Part shown: positions 1 through 57,540 of the stretch, in pieces | Numbering within the stretch: the stretch's first letter is position 1 | Layout: each line of letters opens with the position of its first letter | Source: Geoglobus acetivorans | GTDB lineage: Archaea; Halobacteriota; Archaeoglobi; Archaeoglobales; Archaeoglobaceae | Length of the DNA stretch: 64,000 bases | Assembly (NCBI RefSeq): GCF_000789255.1 | Contig: NZ_CP009552.1 | Location: 992,001 to 1,056,000, forward strand | Direction: 5' to 3' | The notes under the pieces: generated by a model | Seen by the model: the letters and a program-made list of their open reading frames with translations, nothing else | What the model was told of the DNA's origin: nothing | Database searches by the model: none | Made by a program: the position numbers and the translations under genes

Positions 1-165
1 CACTCCGATGAAATCGTATTCTGAAGACATGACATCGACGACATCCATTGTGGTGTAGTCCCCTGCATGGACGACCATATCGGCAGCGTCAAATAAACCG
101 ATCAGCGAATCCGGAAGGTCCCGGAAATTCTCAGCATGCGTATCCGAGACTGCAACAATTCGCAT
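1..165 (-). CDS. Metallophosphoesterase, YfcE/MJ0936 type (N-terminal part only)
   Basis: Only the first 55 codons lie in the window. The N-terminus has the calcineurin-like metal motifs SDTHAE (residues 7-12) and VVHAGDYT (about 31-38), which place Asp8, His10 and Asp36 as metal ligands. The family consists of small cytosolic phosphodiesterases of mostly unknown physiological substrate. The ATG overlaps the stop of the MscS gene by one base (TGATG), so it is the last visible member of the minus-strand operon and probably translationally coupled. Substrate cannot be judged from this fragment. Confidence 0.85.
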   Translation of the reverse strand, partial: MRIVAVSDTHAENFRDLPDSLIGLFDAADMVVHAGDYTTMDVVDVMSSEYDFIGV

Positions 166-992
166 CACTCATCTCTCCCGTGTTTCAGTTCAGGCTCATT
201 CGCAAACCAGATTACTCTCTGAGGGAACGGAATTTCAATACCATTCCTCTCCAGCTCCTCCTTAATTCTGCTCAGCAGGGCCATCTTCACATCATACCAC
301 ACCTGCACGGGAGACCATATCCTCACGACGATGTTCACTGAGCTATCACCGAGATCGTTCACAAATACCGCCGGTGCCGGATTTTTAAGAGCGAATGGTT
401 CCTTTTCTATGACTCCCTTTATTATTTCCACAGCCCGGTCAATATCATCCGAATACCTTATCCCTATGACGTACTCGAACCTTCTCGCCACATTTCCGGT
501 GAGGTTCGTTATTTCACTTGTGAAGAGAGTATTGTTGGGTATCCGGACATAAAGCCCGTCATACGTTCTGACGATTGTTGACATTATCCCAATATCTTCC
601 ACATAACCCGATATGCCTGCAACGCTGATCTGGTCCCCAATTTTCACGGGCTTCTCCCACAGGATGAAGATGCCTGAGATGAAGTTGGACACCACACTCT
701 GGCTTGCGAAACCGAGAACTATACCGGTAATCCCACCTGCAACAAGAAGTCCTGATGGATTCAGACCCAGAAACGGCAGAGCCGTGAGAAACGCAACAAG
801 AACTATGATGTAGTAAACCACCTTTAATATAAGCTCCCTCTGATTTTTCTCAATCCTGTCGCCAAGCGTCCTCCTCAGATTGGTGGTAAGCACTTTTGCC
901 AGAAAAACACCGAACGAGATTATGAATATGGCAATCAGGAAATTCCCGATGGTTACATCGCCGTATATTTTGACACCGAGCAGGTCTATCAT
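165..992 (-). CDS. Small-conductance mechanosensitive channel, MscS family
   Basis: About 275 residues. There are two N-terminal membrane helices, then a Gly/Ala-rich pore helix (LLVAGGITGIVLGFASQS, roughly residues 82-99), followed by the beta domain with KIGDQI and VRIPNN and a C-terminal alpha/beta vestibule. This is the standard short MscS layout, a tension-gated channel that releases osmolytes on hypo-osmotic shock. I chose the ATG at 992, which overlaps the DUF432 stop as ATGA; a GTG at 1001 would add three residues. It sits directly behind a DUF432 gene, a pairing that suggests a functional link. Confidence 0.93.
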   Translation of the reverse strand: MIDLLGVKIYGDVTIGNFLIAIFIISFGVFLAKVLTTNLRRTLGDRIEKNQRELILKVVYYIIVLVAFLTALPFLGLNPSGLLVAGGITGIVLGFASQSVVSNFISGIFILWEKPVKIGDQISVAGISGYVEDIGIMSTIVRTYDGLYVRIPNNTLFTSEITNLTGNVARRFEYVIGIRYSDDIDRAVEIIKGVIEKEPFALKNPAPAVFVNDLGDSSVNIVVRIWSPVQVWYDVKMALLSRIKEELERNGIEIPFPQRVIWFANEPELKHGRDE

Positions 993-1708
993 ACGCCCCA
1001 CTCCATGAAAAATCTCTTGGTAACCACAGGCACTTTTCTCGGCGTGAACACTTCCACGCTCTTCCTCATACCATCCCTCATCGTGTCCATCAGGAACTTC
1101 GTTTCGGCAGAGGCCTTCGAGAGAATCTCCATCTCGGCATTTGAGAACACCATCTCGTCGCTGTAGTAAATCTTCATGAGATAGACGTTGAATACCGCAC
1201 GGCTCACCTCAACCCATTCGCCGAAGTTGTTCCTTATCGATATCCTCATGACCCCCTCTTCAAGCGGATTCCGTTCCGGCAGGTTGGTGAACAGTTCACT
1301 CTCCCAGTACCTGCACACCACCCCGTTTCTCGGGTCTCCGTAAAGACTGTACTTCAGACTGACATTGGAGAAAACATCAATCAGCTCGATATCACCCTTT
1401 CCAGTTGTGAAAACCCCAATTTCCACAGGAAAAGTCGTGAAAAAAGTTTTCCTGTGGCCCGGTTCGATTAAAAGCGTATTTCTGAAATTTATTTCAAGAT
1501 AATTGGTAACGTTTTTAGGGAGATTCACGGGTTCCACCGGATTCACTGCAATTTTACCCTCCCTCGATGCGAGAACCTTTTCCACCCGGCCGTCATCAGA
1601 TTCCCTGATGTACCTGAAAACCTCTGACTCCTTTTCGATCCTGAGTGTGTGCCTTCCAAACTTCAGTTCCATTTCCTGCAGGGGATACACCCCGTAACCC
1701 ACCTTCAT
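989..1708 (-). CDS. DUF432 family protein
   Basis: A 239-residue predicted cytosolic protein with no obvious membrane helix or signal. The start MKVGYGVYPL at 1708 matches the compact family start better than an upstream ATG at 1741, which would overlap the preceding gene; a purine-rich stretch (GAGAAG) precedes it. The family is archaeal and of unknown function. The C-terminal part overlaps the MscS start by four bases, so the two are probably made together. Inference: an accessory or regulatory partner of the channel. Nothing in the sequence shows catalytic residues. Confidence 0.8.
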   Translation of the reverse strand: MKVGYGVYPLQEMELKFGRHTLRIEKESEVFRYIRESDDGRVEKVLASREGKIAVNPVEPVNLPKNVTNYLEINFRNTLLIEPGHRKTFFTTFPVEIGVFTTGKGDIELIDVFSNVSLKYSLYGDPRNGVVCRYWESELFTNLPERNPLEEGVMRISIRNNFGEWVEVSRAVFNVYLMKIYYSDEMVFSNAEMEILSKASAETKFLMDTMRDGMRKSVEVFTPRKVPVVTKRFFMEWGV

Positions 1709-1712
1709 CTTC

Positions 1713-3701
1713 TCAGAACCCCACGCCGACAAAATACACAAAAACCAGCAGTGCAGAAACCACCATGAAAATTGAGTGCTTTATTCCAGACCTCAAGCTT
1801 CCTGACCCCATGACTCCGGCAACAAGTCCACTGAAAAGCCCGTTAAGGAGGCTTGCGTGGTAGAAGAGAGTTGTGGTTTCAGAGACGTTAAGGGAGGCAA
1901 AGTAAACTCCTGAAACAGACTGGGGAACCGAGATATTCGAGAAAACCTTGATGAAATTCTGGTTGAGTATCACAATCGTGAACAGGAAGACATAGAAGGT
2001 GACGTAGACTATAACGGTGTAGACAAACATCTCGTTCGCAACCCTCTTTCTGAATTCAAGGAACATCTCCGCATCCGTTGCTGCGGTGAAAATGGCAGCC
2101 TTTACATTGTCCGTGGCTTCAAGCGCTTTCACGAGGATGGATATGACCTTCCCCACGACCGGGCTGCCCACCCTCTCTTCAAACCTCAGAAAGGCTTCGG
2201 TGGCGAGCCTTCCCCACTCTATGTCCTTCCTTATGTTGGATATCTCCCTCGTCAGGGCCCCGAGGTCAGACATGGAGAGGACCTTGAGGGCGTTCACAAG
2301 TGTTAGACCGCTTTCGTTAAGACTGCCCAGCTGCTTCAGAAGATCCGGCAGTTCATTTTCCATTTTTCTGAGTTTTACAATCCTGATTTCATAAAGTATC
2401 GTATATGGTATTGCCACAATCAGAAGCACGGCCACAAGAAGGGTTTCTATTCTCAATTTACCGAATGCAATCGCAGAAAACAGCAGTGCCGCCGGAATGG
2501 TTGCTGCAAGAGTGTAATGGGGGTTTCTCAGAATTAGGTCGATATTGAAAATCTTTTTCAGATCAGACTTCAGCCTCTTCAGCAACCTTGCCAGCCTGCC
2601 CTTTGACCGGTATCCTGAGACTCTGTCCACAGAGATTATCTTTGCCCCGATGAAGAGGGGAGTCGCTACCCTCTCGACCCATCCTCCCTCCTCACGCTTC
2701 ATCATGGAGTTTATGAGCCAGATGAACATGACCGCACCGATGGGTATGTAGCCATACACAATCAGCTTCGAAAAAGACGATTCCGCTCCACCCATCATAC
2801 CCAGAAGTATGAACACGATCAGCGAGAACAGGGGGGCAACAACGAACATGGCCACATACACTTCCCCGAAAATTTCAAGCGTGTTGATGAATATCTCGTA
2901 GTATCTCTCCCTTTCCTCAATGAAGTGGGATGATTTGAACTCGAGGAACTCACTGACCTTCCCGCCACCCTCAACAACGCCAATCATGTCCTCAAGAAAC
3001 TCGGAGAGTTTCGAGGATGGTGTGGTGTTGGAAACAAACCTCATTGCAGATATGAGATCCCTGTGAAAAACGCTCACCTCCCTGTAGATTATCGAGAACT
3101 CCTTTCCCACTTCTCCGGTTATCGATCTTTCCTCAGCAATTGTCTTTATGATCTCGAGCAGCGAAGCCCCTCCCTTGGACATTCCCAGCATTATGTTCAC
3201 AACATGGGGGAGGGTTGATTCTATCTTGGACCTTCTCTGTACCAGAATGAGTCTCGGGTAATACAGAATGGCGAGCCGGGATAGTATGAAGAGAAGCGCT
3301 GTCATGGCTGTCAGCACGATAAGTTCGAACACGAAAACATCCGGTTTCTGAAATGAAAGCCTGATGGGTATTTCACGGTAGCTGACGATGTCAACCGGGA
3401 GAAATGACAGGCCACCGGTGTAGCTGGCGTAATAATAACCGAGAACCTTGGCCACCGAGTAGGAGAACATTATGTACAGCGGGAGAAAGACGAGAGGATA
3501 AAATGTGGCTATCGCAAGATATCTCGGGACGGTCACGGGCAATCTCGAGGAAACCAGTGTCTTTTCAAGATTGTGATATCTATCCCTGTCCCTCTCATAC
3601 CTCTTCCTGAAATACCTGACAAATGGTCTGGGAGCGTAAACTGCAAATTTTTCCCTGAAAGTGTCCTCAGAGTTGGATCGCCTGTCCTGCATCAGTGTCA
3701 T
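1713..3701 (-). CDS. Archaeal type II/IV secretion membrane platform protein (TadC/GspF/FlaJ-like)
   Basis: A 662-residue integral membrane protein with two GspF-type repeats. The first cytoplasmic repeat lies near residues 160-290 (ESTLPHVVNIMLGMSKGG, then VVEGGGKVSEFLE) and the second near 430-550 (MENELPDLLKQLGSLNESG). Hydrophobic helices lie around 65-90, 125-150, 300-345, 400-440 and at the C-terminus. Such proteins form the inner-membrane platform of archaeal pili and secretion machines, powered by the GspE-type ATPase encoded just upstream with a 35-base overlap. No pilin or prepilin peptidase gene is in the window, so the exported product is unknown. Confidence 0.9.
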   Translation of the reverse strand: MTLMQDRRSNSEDTFREKFAVYAPRPFVRYFRKRYERDRDRYHNLEKTLVSSRLPVTVPRYLAIATFYPLVFLPLYIMFSYSVAKVLGYYYASYTGGLSFLPVDIVSYREIPIRLSFQKPDVFVFELIVLTAMTALLFILSRLAILYYPRLILVQRRSKIESTLPHVVNIMLGMSKGGASLLEIIKTIAEERSITGEVGKEFSIIYREVSVFHRDLISAMRFVSNTTPSSKLSEFLEDMIGVVEGGGKVSEFLEFKSSHFIEERERYYEIFINTLEIFGEVYVAMFVVAPLFSLIVFILLGMMGGAESSFSKLIVYGYIPIGAVMFIWLINSMMKREEGGWVERVATPLFIGAKIISVDRVSGYRSKGRLARLLKRLKSDLKKIFNIDLILRNPHYTLAATIPAALLFSAIAFGKLRIETLLVAVLLIVAIPYTILYEIRIVKLRKMENELPDLLKQLGSLNESGLTLVNALKVLSMSDLGALTREISNIRKDIEWGRLATEAFLRFEERVGSPVVGKVISILVKALEATDNVKAAIFTAATDAEMFLEFRKRVANEMFVYTVIVYVTFYVFLFTIVILNQNFIKVFSNISVPQSVSGVYFASLNVSETTTLFYHASLLNGLFSGLVAGVMGSGSLRSGIKHSIFMVVSALLVFVYFVGVGF

Positions 3702-5268
3702 GGGCCTCTACCTCTCTATATATCATTTCGAACGGCTGGCCTGGGTTGAGATAGTACGCTTGGAACATGTGGGTCAGCTTGATGTAGTCCCTGACGTTAT
3801 TTTTATCGAGGAACTTCAAAAATTCCGCCCTTCTCTTCAGCTCTTCCTGCACCTCATCATAGCTTTCACCCCTTATCATCGCAATTTTCTCCAGCTTCTT
3901 TGAGGGGTTTATGAGGTAATAGGCATCATCGTAAGACGACCAGCGGACGAATTCATTGATGAGAAGCTCCTTCTCATTCGGATCTATTCCGAGGAACTCG
4001 TAAATTGCTTTCGCTCTCCTTCTTCTAACACTCTCCTTCGTCCACTGGGTCTGAACCACCACTATGTCGAGGAACTGTATCAGGCTCCTCGGGACATTCA
4101 GAGGCTCACTCTCAAGCCTGTAGATCACCTGATACACATCACCTGCGTGGAGCGTCGAGTAGGCCGCATGACCCGTCGACATAGCCTGAAACAGAGTCTG
4201 TGCCTCTATACCTCTAATCTCTCCCACGACGATGTACTCTGGCCTCTGCCTCATCGCAGCCTTGAGCAGGTCGTACATGGAAATAACGTTCTCATCACCT
4301 GTGGTAACCTCTCGAGTAACTCCTGCAATCCAGTTTTCATGATAGAGGACGATTTCCCTTGTGTCTTCTATGGACACAACCTTCACGTCCGGAGGGAGAA
4401 ACATCAGTATTGCGTTGAGGGTTGTTGTTTTCCCCGCTGCAGTTTCACCGACTACCAGAATGTTCAGCTTGTTCTCTATTGCGAGCCAGAAATACGCCAT
4501 CTGCTCGTAGGTATAGGTGCCGAACCTTATGAGGTCTATGGGCGTGAGTGGCTCCTCAGTGAATTTTCTGATCGTGAATGAAGAACCTCTCGGAGTTATT
4601 TCGGTACCGTATGTGGCCTGCAGCCTGCTGCCATCGGGCAGTGTCGCATCGATTATGGGGTTTCCGTAGCTTATGTGCTTGCCGGACATCTGAACGAGTG
4701 ACTGGACGGTTCTGTCAAGCTCCACATCGCCAAAAATGATGTTTGTGGGTATGTTGCCATACCTCTTGTGGTACACGTAAACTGGTATGTTGTATCCATC
4801 ACAGCTTATATCCTCGATATACGGGTCATTGACAAGTGGATCGATCTGCCCAAAGCCAATAAAATCCCTGTACAGATAGTAAAGGTACTTCAATCTCAGA
4901 ACCGGGTCGAGTTCAACCGCAAATTCATCGACAACCTCATTGAATGCAGAGAGGAGAATCTTCTCCTTCTGAAACAGGTCAGTAACCACGTCCTTCAAAA
5001 CCAGGATGTTCGTAAGCTCAAAATAAATCCTTTCAAGGAGCTGAAACTCGTCAGGGTTCAGCGTTGGCTCCATCGTGTTGTACTTCAGTTTGTTCGTATC
5101 CCTGTCAAGTATAATCTCAGCCGCAACAAATGGTCTGAAAATCCAGTAACCCTCTCTGATTACCCCCTGAGCCTCCTCTCCCAGATCCTCGATTATCTCC
5201 TCTTCAGACACATACTCCAGAAGATGCTTTTTGAGAAGCGGATAATACTTGGTACTAAGCGTAAACAT
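3667..5268 (-). CDS. Archaeal type II/IV secretion system ATPase (GspE/VirB11-like)
   Basis: A 533-residue hexameric motor ATPase. Walker A is VGETAAGKTTT (about residues 271-281), the Asp box follows as VVSIEDTREI, Walker B is YIVVGEIRG, and the His box is STGHAAYSTLHAG. The roughly 200-residue N-terminal region preceding the core is typical of archaeal pilus/secretion ATPases. It is the first gene of a tight minus-strand operon with the membrane platform, DUF432 and MscS. A TATA-like ATATATAA lies 25-32 bases before the ATG, pointing to a leaderless mRNA. It probably drives assembly of a type IV-pilus-like filament whose subunit is encoded elsewhere. Confidence 0.93.
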   Translation of the reverse strand: MFTLSTKYYPLLKKHLLEYVSEEEIIEDLGEEAQGVIREGYWIFRPFVAAEIILDRDTNKLKYNTMEPTLNPDEFQLLERIYFELTNILVLKDVVTDLFQKEKILLSAFNEVVDEFAVELDPVLRLKYLYYLYRDFIGFGQIDPLVNDPYIEDISCDGYNIPVYVYHKRYGNIPTNIIFGDVELDRTVQSLVQMSGKHISYGNPIIDATLPDGSRLQATYGTEITPRGSSFTIRKFTEEPLTPIDLIRFGTYTYEQMAYFWLAIENKLNILVVGETAAGKTTTLNAILMFLPPDVKVVSIEDTREIVLYHENWIAGVTREVTTGDENVISMYDLLKAAMRQRPEYIVVGEIRGIEAQTLFQAMSTGHAAYSTLHAGDVYQVIYRLESEPLNVPRSLIQFLDIVVVQTQWTKESVRRRRAKAIYEFLGIDPNEKELLINEFVRWSSYDDAYYLINPSKKLEKIAMIRGESYDEVQEELKRRAEFLKFLDKNNVRDYIKLTHMFQAYYLNPGQPFEMIYREVEAHDTDAGQAIQL

Positions 5269-5292
5269 ACAATCTTTTATTTTCTGTTAACA

Positions 5293-5300
5293 ATATATAA
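5293..5300 (-). promoter_or_regulatory. TATA box of the secretion ATPase operon
   Basis: ATATATAA centred about 28 bases upstream of the ATG at 5268 on the minus strand. This is the spacing of an archaeal TATA box for a leaderless transcript. Confidence 0.55.
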
Positions 5301-5342
5301 ATGTTACATTATCCTCACAGCATAACGCGTTTTGGAGATTAA

Positions 5343-52383: not shown

Positions 52384-53019
52384 TTACTCAGTCTCTGCAA
52401 AATACCTTGAAATTATCTTGCAAAGCCCTTCCTGGATGTGCTTGTGGACAGCACTTTTGGAGACGTTCAAGGCGGTGGCAATGTCCTCAAGGGTTACCTT
52501 CCGCTTTCTGTCGAAATATCCCATTTCGTACGCCGCCTTCAGCACTGCGTACTGCCTTTCAGTGAGAGTCTCACCCTTTTCACCGATTATGCTCCTCACC
52601 TCGAGGACCTCCCAGTTGCCGACCTTCCTCAGCTTTTCATAGGCATTTCTGAGAAACTTGAGTTCAGGAGCATAAACCGTGTAAAGTTTTGAACCGTTTT
52701 CAACGATGATTGGTGGCTTTATGAAGCAGTATGATTCCTCAAAGGCTTTAATGCCGGTTGTATCTCGTATAACCGCAAGGAAATCCAGGTTCGTCTTGGT
52801 CTTCTCAAGAATTTGAAAAAATCTCGTGCTGGGATGGTTTTCTATTGCATTGAAGCACTTGCTTGGATCTCCGTCCATTCTTGTTATCCTTCCGAGAAAA
52901 AGAGCTTCCTCGTCATTCAAAAGAATGTACTCAAGAAGTTCAATCGTTGCGTTACCCATTGTCGTGGCAACTGCGAGAGAACAGGTGTGCTGATTCACCC
53001 TGATTTTTGCGAGATACAT
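52384..53019 (-). CDS. HTH transcriptional regulator, bacterio-opsin-activator (HTH_10) type
   Basis: 211 residues. The C-terminal HTH_10 domain reads TLTERQYAVLKAAYEMGYFD then RKRKVTLEDIATALNVSKSA (about residues 150-190), as in Bat-family regulators. The N-terminal 140 residues are a divergent sensor/ligand region. It is transcribed away from the DUF2193-DUF2180-aqpM operon across a 120-base gap with three GTCAAC elements, one pair of which flanks its own TATA box, so it is likely to control both itself and that operon. Confidence 0.88.
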   Translation of the reverse strand: MYLAKIRVNQHTCSLAVATTMGNATIELLEYILLNDEEALFLGRITRMDGDPSKCFNAIENHPSTRFFQILEKTKTNLDFLAVIRDTTGIKAFEESYCFIKPPIIVENGSKLYTVYAPELKFLRNAYEKLRKVGNWEVLEVRSIIGEKGETLTERQYAVLKAAYEMGYFDRKRKVTLEDIATALNVSKSAVHKHIQEGLCKIISRYFAETE

Positions 53020-53026
53020 GGTGTAT

Positions 53027-53093
53027 ATGTCAACTTAATCATATTTAACAATGAGCGTTGACATTTCCACGCACAAAGGGTAGATTTGTCAAC
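53027..53093. promoter_or_regulatory. Three GTCAAC-type motifs: putative operator
   Basis: ATGTCAAC (53027-53034) and its exact inverse GTTGACAT (53057-53064) are separated by 22 bases containing an AT-rich TATA candidate for the regulator. A third direct copy TGTCAAC (53087-53093) abuts the TATA box of the plus-strand operon. Such repeats in a divergent intergenic region are typical of regulator sites. Confidence 0.6.
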
Positions 53094-53096
53094 CAG

Positions 53097-53107
53097 AGTA
53101 TATATTT
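53097..53107 (+). promoter_or_regulatory. TATA box of the DUF2193-DUF2180-aqpM operon
   Basis: AGTATATATTTA, 33-43 bases before the ATG at 53140. This leaves a short leader with a ribosome site GGTGATT about 8 bases before the ATG. Confidence 0.6.
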
Positions 53108-53139
53108 ATCATTAATGATTATATTATTTCGGTGATTAG

Positions 53140-54639
53140 ATGAAGGAAGTCATTGAGAAGATGGTCGAGGAGGCCATCGCCGCCCAGTGGGCGGATGTGA
53201 ACGTGATTAAGGAGAAGAGAGGAGGAGAGTTTGTTATAGATGATGTAAAGCCGTATGTGGATGCGGTAAACAACATGAAGGCAGTTGGAAACCAGAGCAA
53301 GGCAGTAATAAGACTGCACGTGGACAGCGTGAATGCCCACTTCGAAATTTTGAGAAGTCTGACAAAGACCGTAAGGCCGGAAGACGACCCGTTCGTGGAG
53401 CATTACCAGACGCCGGCAATTCTTGAAATCCTGTACGAGGAAGATGAAAGTTTCAGAAAGAGTGTGGACAAGTTTATTGAGGCCATAGGGAAAGCCGAAG
53501 CCCTGATAGGGCTGGAGGTTGTCAGGAGATATGGCGGTTTCTACGGCCCCACCTGTGTTGTGGACTTTGCCCTCATACCGGGAAGCACAAGCAACATCGT
53601 GAACAGAATTTTAAAAACGGTTGACATACCGAAGGAGCATGCACAGGCAATCCTTGCCTCTAAGTCGTGGGGAATGAACACTTCCTACGGCTTTGGAGAG
53701 GTTTTTGCAAACGAGATTGAAAAGGGCGCAACACTGAGCGATGCTATAAAGAAGGAAATCGAGATGATCAAGCTCGTTTACGACCAGCCAATAGAAGCCC
53801 AGGCAAGGCTGATGGATGAGCACGGCCACGAGAGCTTCGACGTGAGGAAATACATGAGCGAATACAAGAACAGGATGAGAGGAGCGGTTAAGGAGGCAAT
53901 GGATGACGGTGTGCATTACGGCAACATTGTAACCGTGCCGGCATACTGTGTTGGAGATGCCGCCCACCACATTGCCCAGTCAACATTCAACATGTGCAAG
54001 GATGACGTTGTCATGGCAGTCATCGAAGCTGTCAGCAATGTCATGGAATCGACTCTCAGGGCAAATCTCGACAGATTCACAAGCGAGTATCAGCCACTGA
54101 CTCTGGCAACAGGCTCAACAGCAGTTGCAACAGAGTACATCTTAGAGCTTGACGGGTTCAACGCCCCGATGATCGTTGATCTGCTCACCAAGAGGTACCA
54201 CAACTACGTCCAGCTTTATCCGACGAGGGGTGGTGCTGCCGAGCTGCACAACCACGACTTCATGGACATGATATACAGGGGATGGAAGTACCTCGACAAG
54301 GCAAGAAGAGACAGAAACGGCCTTTCAGACAAGCTCGTGCCAAAGGTCTCGGGCTTCGAAGTGAACCTCGACCCAATCCACGAGAATGAGGTCCTGATGA
54401 ACCCGCAGCGCTATGCATATCCGGGATGTGCCATCAGCGTAAGGTTCTCGGCTCTGATGAGACTGGCAGACTATCCATGTCTGCTCACGAGCGAGCCAGT
54501 TACGGCAACCATGATGACCAACATCATCGCGCTGCACAAGGATACACCTGCATCACCGGCAAGAGTCTGTAAGGACTGTGCCACGGCAGCGCTTGTGGAC
54601 TTCAGACACTCATATTGCCAGTGGAAAGAGGCTGTTTAA
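53140..54639 (+). CDS. DUF2193 family protein
   Basis: 499 residues. Best matched, from memory, to the archaeal DUF2193 family, found mainly in methanogens and Archaeoglobales and of unknown function. It has several conserved-looking polar patches: VRRYGGFYGPTCVVDFALIP, DEHGHESFDVRKYM, DAAHHIAQSTFN and AAELHNHDFMDMIYRG, with His and Asp/Glu able to bind metal. A C-terminal Cys pair is seen in CKDCATAALVD. No signal peptide. It is the first gene of an operon with DUF2180 and an aquaporin. A T-run follows its stop. Confidence 0.85.
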   Translation: MKEVIEKMVEEAIAAQWADVNVIKEKRGGEFVIDDVKPYVDAVNNMKAVGNQSKAVIRLHVDSVNAHFEILRSLTKTVRPEDDPFVEHYQTPAILEILYEEDESFRKSVDKFIEAIGKAEALIGLEVVRRYGGFYGPTCVVDFALIPGSTSNIVNRILKTVDIPKEHAQAILASKSWGMNTSYGFGEVFANEIEKGATLSDAIKKEIEMIKLVYDQPIEAQARLMDEHGHESFDVRKYMSEYKNRMRGAVKEAMDDGVHYGNIVTVPAYCVGDAAHHIAQSTFNMCKDDVVMAVIEAVSNVMESTLRANLDRFTSEYQPLTLATGSTAVATEYILELDGFNAPMIVDLLTKRYHNYVQLYPTRGGAAELHNHDFMDMIYRGWKYLDKARRDRNGLSDKLVPKVSGFEVNLDPIHENEVLMNPQRYAYPGCAISVRFSALMRLADYPCLLTSEPVTATMMTNIIALHKDTPASPARVCKDCATAALVDFRHSYCQWKEAV

Positions 54640-54667: not shown

Positions 54668-54877
54668 ATGAAATGTTATATTTGTAAAGAGCAGGGGAAA
54701 GATACCGAGGCTGTTGCGATCTGCATTGTCTGCGGAATGGGAGTCTGCATGGAGCATCTTGTGAGGAAGGACGTCGAGCTCTGGAAAGGAGATTACCCCT
54801 TCCCATCAAGAAAGCTGAAAAAGACCGTGCCGAGAATCCTGTGCTCCATCTGCAATGAAGCGTACGAGGAGGGCTGA
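54668..54877 (+). CDS. DUF2180 zinc-finger-like protein
   Basis: 69 residues. Cys pairs are CYICKEQG (residues 3-6), CIVCGMGVCMEH (about 18-29) and CSICNEAY near the end, with a His in CMEH, a treble-clef or B-box-like zinc motif. The family is archaeal and of unknown function. It lies between the DUF2193 gene and aqpM, two bases from the latter, so it is almost certainly co-transcribed with it. Confidence 0.85.
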   Translation: MKCYICKEQGKDTEAVAICIVCGMGVCMEHLVRKDVELWKGDYPFPSRKLKKTVPRILCSICNEAYEEG

Positions 54878-54879
54878 GG

Positions 54880-55614
54880 ATGACACTTGTAAAGAAATGC
54901 GTCTCCGAGCTCGTGGGAACTGCTCTGCTCGTTTATTTCGGTGCAGGTTCTGCAGTAATCACGCTCATGATCTCCAACAAAGCCCAGACACCAAACGAAT
55001 TCAATATCGGCATTGGAGCTCTGGGTGGACTTGGGGACTGGCTCGCAATAGGAATGGCCTTCGCGCTGATAATATCTGCCGTCATATACTCACTTGGGAG
55101 GGTCAGTGGAGCCCACATCAACCCCGCCGTAACCATTGCGCTCTGGGCAACAAAGAGGTTTCCAACCTCTGAAGTCGCACCGTACATCGTTGCACAGCTG
55201 ATTGGGGCGAGTCTTGGCAGCATTCTCTTCCTGGCAAGTGTCGGGAGCAACGCAGCGCTTATCGGAGGAATGGGTGCCACCGCACCATTTCCGGGAATAA
55301 GTTATGGGCAGGCCATCATTACAGAGGCGATCGGAACTTTTGTGCTGATGCTGGTCATAATGGGTGTCGCAGTTGATGAACGTGCCCCACCGGGGTTTGC
55401 AGGGCTTATAATCGGCCTTACAGTCGGAGGAATAATCATAACAATCGGAAACATCACAGGCTCATCACTGAACCCTGCAAGAACCTTCGGACCTTACCTC
55501 GTGGATTCGATGTATGGTATAAACCTCTGGCAGTACTTCCCGATATACATCATCGGCCCGATACTGGGGGCAGTTGCTGCAGCATTCCTTTACGACTATC
55601 TGGCAGGCAAGTAA
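54880..55614 (+). CDS. aqpM: Aquaporin M (MIP family channel)
   Basis: 244 residues with six membrane helices and two NPA boxes: GAHINPAVTIALW (about residues 80-92) and GSSLNPARTFGPYL (about 195-208). An Ile or Val at the selectivity filter, as in archaeal AqpM, fits a channel for water and small neutral solutes. The order DUF2193-DUF2180-aqpM hints at transport of a neutral gas or metabolite linked to the upstream unknown protein. T-rich sequence follows the stop. Confidence 0.96.
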   Translation: MTLVKKCVSELVGTALLVYFGAGSAVITLMISNKAQTPNEFNIGIGALGGLGDWLAIGMAFALIISAVIYSLGRVSGAHINPAVTIALWATKRFPTSEVAPYIVAQLIGASLGSILFLASVGSNAALIGGMGATAPFPGISYGQAIITEAIGTFVLMLVIMGVAVDERAPPGFAGLIIGLTVGGIIITIGNITGSSLNPARTFGPYLVDSMYGINLWQYFPIYIIGPILGAVAAAFLYDYLAGK

Positions 55615-55639: not shown

Positions 55640-57433
55640 TCATTTTTTAATTCTGATGATGAACCTTGCCCCCTGCTCTGACCTCTCGATGGTAATCTCG
55701 CCATCGTACCTCGTGAGCATAAGCTTCACAATGTACAGTCCAAACCCACCTCCAGACGTGCTGAAACCTGGATCGAAGATTTTGTCCGCAATTTCATCAG
55801 GTATGCCCCTTCCATTATCATGATACTCGATTATGCAGTATTCCGGAGTCTCTTCAATCCGTATGTCCACTCTGGTAGCATTCCCGTGTTTTATGGAGTT
55901 CTGTATGAGGTTGTCAAACACGACCTCTATGCCACTATCAACACTAACCCTGCAATCGCCCTCCACGTTGATTTCAATTTCCGGATAAAGCCTGCCCACC
56001 TTCACCAGCACGTCTCTGAGGTTTACCTCTCGTTTCTCGCCCTCCTTGAGAACAGCTTCCAGAACTCTTGAAACATCCAGCACCTTTTTCAGCCTTTCGA
56101 GTGATGCTTCCAGCCTTAAGAGGTAATCTTTCTCTCCAGTCTCCTCATACATCTCGAGATAGATCAGTGCGGAGGTGAGGTGGTTTGCTATGTCGTGCCT
56201 GATTATGGAATTAACAAGCCTGACCCCATCCCCATACTCCTCAAGCCTCTTGGAATACTTGTACAGGTTTTCCTTCATTTCACCAATGGCCTCTGAAAGC
56301 AGCCTCGCTTCCCTGTAATCTCTTCTCGGTCCGATTTTCATTTCATACAGTCCTCTGGATATCAGCCTGGATTTCTGAATGAGGTCCTCAATTGGCCTTA
56401 AAATGAAGTTCGAGAGAACGAGCCCCAGTATGGCAAATATCCCCGCAATACCAACGGCACTTATCATCGCACCCCTGTAAGACTCATAGAGAAGCCCGGT
56501 AAGAACATCCGACTTCACGGCGCTGATAATGAGATAATCTCTCCCGTTCTTGAGTCTGGCCCACTTGTAATACCCGTAAAACTCAGTCTCGTTGCCATAA
56601 GAGAATTTAACGAAACCCTCTTTATCCCGAAAATCAGCGAGATTCAGCAGCGGACACACCGGACAGGATTCGTTAAACTCCCTGGACGGATCGACAGTAT
56701 TCACAATGAACCTCGGTCCCAGGATTTCGCCCTCGGCGTTTTCATAATGCGGATCTACAATGAAGATATGCTCAGACCCGTTCATGTAAAGCTCCTTAAT
56801 AATCGAAAAAGACTTTTCAAAGTTGTAATTTGCAATAAGCAGGCCCATTACCTGACCATCATAGTAGAGTGGCATTGTGTATCTTATAGCCGGTGTTTCC
56901 GTGTGTCTCGCAATGTTTATCGGAGATATGTAGATGTCGGAAACGTTGCCGGATATTGTCTCCTCAAACCACTTTTTATCGCCCTTGTAATCAAAAAAAT
57001 CCTCTCGTTCGTAAACGGTCCCCGCAACCACGTAGCCATCCTTCCAGAAGATCCTCAGCATTTCAATGTCATCACTCGAATTGCCCACAGACAGGAAAAG
57101 TTCGATTAATCTGCGGTATTCAGAGCTGTTACTGAACTCGGAAGGATAGGGAGGACTCAAATTTCCGGACATTTTGGTTTTTGCGAACCTGTTGAAAAAA
57201 GAAGAGACTTCCCTATGTGATGCGACAAACATGAACTCCTTCTTCTGAGCATCTATTTTGCTGTTGAGAAGTTTCTCAATGGAGTTCACCTTAGTCTTCA
57301 TTTTTTCTTCAATCTGAGTGCTGAAATGTGTGGTATAGGTGTCCAGATTGATGTAAGCGACGGTAATTGCAGCCGAAATTACGGAGGATATGAGAATGGC
57401 GGTGATCAAAAATGCGAGAGTAACTTTGTCCAT
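55640..57433 (-). CDS. Membrane sensor histidine kinase (Cache-type sensor, HAMP, HisKA, HATPase)
   Basis: About 597 residues from the ATG at 57433 (MDKVTLAFLITAILISS), preferred over an upstream start at 57535 because the membrane helix then begins immediately. A long extracytoplasmic segment (about 30-330) contains Cache-like DGYVVAG and YTMPLYYDGQVMGLLIANYN. A second helix, then HAMP (SNFILRPIEDLIQ), DHp IRHDIANHLTSALIY (phospho-His) and HATPase boxes DNLIQNSIKHG, YHDNGRGIP, FGLYIVK follow. No response regulator is adjacent; the one at 31358 is the only receiver in the window. Confidence 0.93.
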   Translation of the reverse strand: MDKVTLAFLITAILISSVISAAITVAYINLDTYTTHFSTQIEEKMKTKVNSIEKLLNSKIDAQKKEFMFVASHREVSSFFNRFAKTKMSGNLSPPYPSEFSNSSEYRRLIELFLSVGNSSDDIEMLRIFWKDGYVVAGTVYEREDFFDYKGDKKWFEETISGNVSDIYISPINIARHTETPAIRYTMPLYYDGQVMGLLIANYNFEKSFSIIKELYMNGSEHIFIVDPHYENAEGEILGPRFIVNTVDPSREFNESCPVCPLLNLADFRDKEGFVKFSYGNETEFYGYYKWARLKNGRDYLIISAVKSDVLTGLLYESYRGAMISAVGIAGIFAILGLVLSNFILRPIEDLIQKSRLISRGLYEMKIGPRRDYREARLLSEAIGEMKENLYKYSKRLEEYGDGVRLVNSIIRHDIANHLTSALIYLEMYEETGEKDYLLRLEASLERLKKVLDVSRVLEAVLKEGEKREVNLRDVLVKVGRLYPEIEINVEGDCRVSVDSGIEVVFDNLIQNSIKHGNATRVDIRIEETPEYCIIEYHDNGRGIPDEIADKIFDPGFSTSGGGFGLYIVKLMLTRYDGEITIERSEQGARFIIRIKK

Positions 57434-57510
57434 TGAACTCAGATTTTTCAGTGAGCAAATAAATCTTTTTATTTCATGCTTCCTGAGGGAATGTTCAACA
57501 GAAGAAGGAT

Positions 57511-57518
57511 ATTTATAC
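57511..57518 (+). promoter_or_regulatory. TATA box of the 2-hydroxyacid dehydrogenase operon
   Basis: ATTTATAC about 27 bases before the ATG at 57541. Confidence 0.5.
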
Positions 57519-57540
57519 ATGCAAATCATCAGCATTAATC

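Follow-up and report, generated by a model that had tools for sequence, protein, structure and literature searches.

The Gap between the Regulator and the Operon

What protein, if any, reads the hexamer GTCAAC that recurs in the gap between a gene for an HTH_10 regulator and the operon that diverges from it? In what follows, the window is the whole stretch of DNA analysed (64 kb), and coordinates are those of the window. The regulator (211 amino acids; Pfam PF04967, E 7.7e-20; 26 orthologues aligned) is encoded on the minus strand at 52384..53019. The operon, on the plus strand, comprises genes for a DUF2193 protein (53140..54639; 499 amino acids; PF09959, E 3.8e-278), a DUF2180 protein (54668..54877; 69 amino acids; PF09947, E 1.2e-38) and a MIP-family aquaporin of the aqpM type (54880..55614; 244 amino acids; PF00230, E 3.2e-49; TIGR00861 above its cut-off). 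A ribosome-binding sequence, GGTGAT (53131..53136, plus strand), precedes the DUF2193 gene, and its GGTGA is conserved in most divergent gaps. Convergent with the operon is a gene for a histidine kinase (55640-57535) with a HATPase match and a weak Cache match; kinase matches beside the operon were found only in genomes G000 and G025-G027.

The first-pass annotation had pointed to three GTCAAC motifs in the gap, and all three were confirmed. Two of them, ATGTCAAC (53027-53034) and GTTGACAT (53057-53064), are separated by 22 bases, and the third is the TGTCAAC at 53087-53093. Both TATA candidates were read from the sequence. The regulator's, TTAAATAT on the minus strand (53041..53048), sits between the first and second copies, about 25 bp from the regulator's ATG, a distance that would fit a leaderless transcript. 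That of the operon, TATATATTTA on the plus strand (53099..53108), starts 5 bp past the third copy, and its TATA-like columns are conserved in the alignment of orthologous gaps.

Counting the motif, which the first-pass annotation had proposed as a check, gave an answer in two parts. As a bare word TGTCAAC is ordinary and common, with 304 copies in the 1,860,815 bp of the genome; 10 of the 13 copies within the window lie in coding DNA, and at least 13 copies turn up in 14 of 100 shuffled versions of the window. Its clustering in the gap is nonetheless beyond chance (Poisson P ~1.1e-6 for at least three copies in a gap of 120 bp). One might still hold that the hexamers are functionless products of chance or composition, citing how common the word is, its mostly coding location within the window and the P of ~0.015 for three copies within 60 bp somewhere in the genome. 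The comparative data given below refute this, leaving it a vanishingly small probability: the positions are conserved across genera while the surrounding letters change, and promoters that played no part in building the model fit it.

The Repeated Unit

Orthologues of the regulator, defined as full-length proteins with at least 50% identity to it, were found in 26 of the 57 genomes of the order. Twenty of these have the divergent arrangement, and their gaps align throughout (19 of the 20 were included, G050 being left out). GTCAAC is present in only two of the 20, and the hexamer was therefore rejected as the unit. By the wording of the first-pass annotation, which had looked to the conservation of GTCAAC in relatives, its absence from 18 of 20 divergent gaps would have amounted to refutation; yet the sites persist in the same places with altered letters, usually GTCCAC but also GTCTGC and similar. 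What had been overlooked is that each copy of the hexamer is half of an imperfect inverted repeat of 14 bp, whose consensus in relatives is GTGGACATGTCCAC.

The window thus has three predicted operator sites, none assigned to a strand: site 1, GTGTATATGTCAAC (53021..53034); site 2, GTTGACATTTCCAC (53057..53070); and site 3, GTAGATTTGTCAAC (53080..53093). Their centres lie 36 bp (sites 1 and 2) and 23 bp (sites 2 and 3) apart. Site 1 falls downstream of the regulator's TATA and ahead of its start codon. Site 2, the strongest of the three, adjoins the regulator's BRE/TATA, with about 8 bp separating it from the TATA on the upstream side. Site 3 abuts the operon promoter at its BRE region and shares some 3 bp with the likely BRE. 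Scored with a symmetric 14-column matrix, which was trained on the 26 promoters and seeded after inspection of the gaps, the sites reach 13.2, 15.5 and 9.8, respectively; a matrix trained without this genus gives 11.3 for site 1 and 13.5 for site 2.

The right half of site 2 is TCCAC, although every other half that can be recognised in this genome is GTCAAC; judging from these letters, the change of C to A is not fully concerted across the sites. A matching change in the recognition helix was considered as its cause and rejected, as the HTH differs little from those of relatives in the same genus that use GTCCAC.

The matrix finds 70 sites in the 26 promoters, as compared to a mean of 4.5 in mononucleotide shuffles (the matrix having been trained on these same sequences), and the best score is at least 12.4 in all 26 DUF2193 promoters. 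The usual layout is a pair of sites, separated by 22-23 bp, ahead of the operon TATA, a spacing that recurs in four of the genomes with tandem arrangement, plus a third site further up, at a distance of 33-38 bp in divergent promoters and 44-46 bp in tandem ones. At the threshold applied, three sites in this layout occur in 14 of the 20 divergent promoters, two in four, one in G054, and G050 has only weak, scattered sites. Amongst the six tandem promoters, four have three sites and two have two. In G050 (L113, 5559-5723), an extra DUF2180-like gene lies between the regulator and DUF2193; the array is largely lost, and the best remaining site scores 12.4.

Tests of the Motif Model

With the matrix trained without this genus, the site at 53057 ranks first in the 64-kb window, and the best triple of sites anywhere in the window is the set of three described here (32.6, against 23.2 for the next best elsewhere). 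When each genus was left out in turn, 25 of the 26 promoters exceeded all 200 dinucleotide shuffles, and that of G050 was matched by one of 200, in a procedure that is not fully blind, since the core used as seed was drawn from viewing all the gaps.

Only three promoters are blind, having first been read once the model was complete. Among 392 genomes of the phylum that were searched, the regulator was found outside the order in G275 and G138, which belong to one family and are called methanogens here on the basis of kinship and gene content. Scanning GTDB genomes, which gave 21 loci, yielded a third case on a contig of Candidatus Methanoperedenaceae. The regulators in all three are about 40-43% identical to that of the window and lie beside DUF2193; the one on the Methanoperedenaceae contig (43%) precedes DUF2193 and an aquaporin in tandem arrangement, and that of G138 is frameshifted. 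Each of the three promoters holds TAGGACATGTCCTA, with a score of 13.4. Each also has a weaker site 46 bp further along (the mean score at offset +46 is 5.1, as compared to a median over offsets of -18.1), although the one in G275 scores only -0.4. The spacing is that found in the tandem promoters of the order.

DUF2193 promoters without a regulator behave differently. Of 28 such promoters from 27 genomes, none reaches 9, the maximum being 8.0. Three of these genomes share a genus with G275 and G138, and the other, regulator-less copy of DUF2193 in G275 itself has a promoter that scores 1.9.

The regulator is carried by three of the 111 genomes of the family to which G275 and G138 belong. In the third, G409, it lies beside a gene other than DUF2193, and the best site scores only 10.8. 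This relative of the regulator (L236) contains one in-frame TAG, which may be read as pyrrolysine or may mark a break, and the product of the neighbouring gene begins, by eye, like an iron-sulfur protein of the heterodisulfide-reductase type.

Association of the Sites with the Regulator

Within the order, the regulator and the non-paralogous DUF2193 gene occupy an identical set of 26 of 57 genomes (a contig end truncates DUF2193 in G012 and G024). G022 has only a paralogue of DUF2193 and lacks a close regulator, and in G007 the regulator is a pseudogene with six in-frame stops (L128, ~4739-5266), with no DUF2193 found. The order regulator-DUF2193-DUF2180-aquaporin recurs: aquaporin and DUF2180 were each found in 23 of the 26 regions, the misses falling mostly at contig ends.

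The two arrangements of the locus bear on what is controlled. In 18 of the 20 divergent gaps (the exceptions are G050 and G054), the usual array is present, with sites 1 and 2 flanking the regulator's TATA, and the predicted operators flank both promoters of the shared gap. This is lost in the six tandem genomes, where the sites stay before DUF2193, and five of the six regulator promoters have no sites (best score 3.0 or less), that of G002 having one of 11.4. Because the sites stay with the operon in the tandem genomes, the operon appears as the conserved target and autoregulation as something that the divergent layout adds. The suggestion in the first-pass annotation that the regulator controls the operon is strongly supported by these comparisons: the co-occurrence in 26 of 57 genomes, the fit of the three blind promoters and the lack of fit of DUF2193 promoters without the regulator. 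Its further suggestion, that the regulator controls itself, holds up as a prediction for the 18 divergent gaps with the usual array and is not supported for the six tandem genomes.

Paralogues of DUF2193, present in 14 genomes, proved uninformative as evidence on operators: in the 13 upstream regions that were read, the DNA by eye runs on as coding, with no separate promoter. In two cases (L116 of G023, 2143-5319; L124 of G024, 3-3024) a diverged paralogue lies near another HTH_10-like gene, and given this proximity the pairing of regulator and DUF2193 may be older than the present operon.

Is the array one of many in the genome? An initial pattern that allowed three mismatches matched 636 times in this genome and was too loose to be of use. 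Within one mismatch of GTKGACATNTCMRC there are 25 rows, representing 22 places. Sites 1 and 2 are intergenic, and the other 20 places, two of them in the window (63281 and 61002), are inside reading frames, as judged by greedy and approximate ORF calls and in a search that weak or degenerate sites would escape. The near-match at 989868 was assigned by the greedy call to the wrong strand, yet a glycosyltransferase-like frame covers it. Exact KRGACATRTCCRC occurs 26 times in 14 other genomes, seven times in the DUF2193 promoter; a few of the other matches are intergenic (e.g. G003 C19, G021 C120), and no target recurs among those 14 genomes. A wider regulon was therefore rejected, these searches having given neither an intergenic near-match beyond sites 1 and 2 in the genome at hand nor a recurrent target in the other 14.

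These results also bear on whether some DNA-binding protein other than the adjacent one reads the sites. Global factors can act on operons, and binding by the HTH_10 protein is a prediction here. Against this, presence of the motif tracks that of the regulator, in the order, in the methanogens and even between duplicate DUF2193 genes within one genome, and a global factor would be expected to have further intergenic near-matches in this genome. Another protein thus seems distinctly improbable, and the three sites are very probably operators of the adjacent HTH_10 regulator. The first-pass suspicion of an operator array was correct, although the unit has had to be redefined, and the predicted link to the neighbouring regulator is well supported comparatively.

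The Regulator and Its Relatives

The regulator consists of an N-terminal sensor-like domain (residues ~1-145) and a C-terminal HTH (152-203). The HTH_10 domain scores 70.9 bits against a Pfam cut-off of 23.1, and all 26 orthologues match it at E up to 1. An AlphaFold model (pLDDT 88) gave fold matches for both the HTH and the N-terminal part. By sequence, the latter resembles HVO_A0563_N (PF24280) weakly, the window protein giving E 0.0033, below the cut-off, and 23 of the 26 members E up to 1 (best 5e-6). Of the 20 families that match the window protein at E up to 1, none is PAS or GAF. In structure, residues 1-145 match chain residues 173-325 of Thermoplasma acidophilum Ta1207 (PDB 5m86), with a Z of 10.9 and an rmsd of 3.1 for 138 residues, well above the other matches for this part; identity, however, is 12%, and a shared fold shows no function. 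The literature on AqpM operons in Archaeoglobus, on AF locus tags and on Ta1207, including its function, yielded nothing relevant.

Two cysteines, Cys13 and Cys98, are invariant in all 26 orthologues, and their equivalents are the sole cysteines in the proteins of G275 and the Methanoperedenaceae contig. NarO has a cysteine cluster in its N-terminal part. It is a fair supposition, and not a stronger one, that the regulator may be a thiol or metal sensor.

Amongst known proteins, Halobacterium Bat, the bop activator, shares the Bat-family HTH DNA-binding domain and differs in having PAS and GAF domains, according to the available text of PMC11218638. Closer in architecture are haloarchaeal regulators of the NarO/DmsR type, which the same text describes as Bat-like HTH proteins without PAS or GAF. 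It reports for the haloarchaeal denitrification system a short palindrome-like motif, CGAAYATDKTYG, repeated in promoters, and, as far as that text goes, the protein that binds this motif is undisclosed. At the level of sequence, the predicted target promoters here likewise carry short palindromes. In register, eight of 12 letters of CGAAYATDKTYG agree with the present consensus, including the central ACATGT, as compared to three to five when shifted. The outer letters differ (GTGGAC...GTCCAC here), as do the lineage and the target operon. The common ACATGT core suggests, though it is suggestive only, that the family shares a recognition code. In the CC-licensed literature searched, no HTH_10 operator was described outside the haloarchaea.

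Proposed Mechanism

The sites, their symmetry, spacing and conservation, and their co-occurrence with the regulator are directly established. The best reading of them is that the array would provide dedicated operators for the adjacent regulator, of Bat/NarO type, serving DUF2193-DUF2180-aqpM and, where the genes diverge, the regulator itself. Each inverted repeat would be bound by one dimer of the regulator. With a spacing of 23 bp, or roughly two helical turns, between sites 2 and 3, two dimers would sit on nearly the same face of the DNA, directly upstream of the operon's BRE and TATA, the strong site 2 probably assisting the weak site 3 through cooperativity. The N-terminal domain may sense a redox- or metal-linked signal via Cys13 and Cys98. 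Sites 2 and 1, flanking the regulator's own TATA, would serve autoregulation, and site 1, downstream of that TATA and in a blocking position, could act as a self-limiting brake.

Control of the operon is most likely by activation, a preference held with modest confidence because the available text of PMC11218638 presents Bat, NarO and DmsR as activators and because several operon promoters (e.g. that of G001) match TATA poorly by eye. The same sites could be those of a repressor, which at site 3 would cover the BRE and block TFB, at site 1 would block its own promoter, and would release both upon a signal. The overlap of site 3 with the likely BRE and the placement of site 1 between TATA and start codon suit such a protein, and autorepressed divergent regulators are common. 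Set against the activators amongst the best-studied HTH_10 proteins and the poor TATA boxes, which fit a need for activation, repression is a real contender and the less probable one.

DUF2193 and the Significance of the Array

Mvol_0354 of Methanococcus voltae belongs to the same family as the DUF2193 protein of the window, with which it shares a C-terminal cysteine cluster. It is more abundant on pyrite, according to the available text of PMC9431491, the one paper among those searched that names DUF2193; that report concerns abundance rather than regulation, and in that text no operator is described. Against PDB, neither a sequence search with DUF2193 (matches below E 0.1) nor Foldseek (E up to 0.001) returned anything, a family's absence from such results being no proof against it.

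In a small tree of 21 selected DUF2193 sequences, the regulator-linked copies from G275, G138 and the Methanoperedenaceae contig cluster with support of 1.0, apart from the regulator-less copy of G275. The G275 copy is 86.6% identical to that of the Methanoperedenaceae contig, whereas the two copies within G275 are 64.3% identical to each other. This regulator-linked clade (L195, L196, L256) suggests horizontal transfer of the cassette. A more speculative proposal, on balance doubtful, is that a self-contained cassette of a two-cysteine HTH_10 sensor, a GGACATGTCC array, DUF2193 and an aquaporin moves among Archaeoglobales, methanogens and anaerobic methane oxidisers, bringing a second copy of DUF2193 that is regulated, and sensing a small redox-active solute that would pass the aquaporin and be handled by DUF2193.

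The array is of a known kind, predicted to the base and with one clear target, and the system has its own built-in controls in the regulator-less and tandem copies. Through it DUF2193, a conserved archaeal protein, becomes approachable: the condition that switches the promoter would point to its role.
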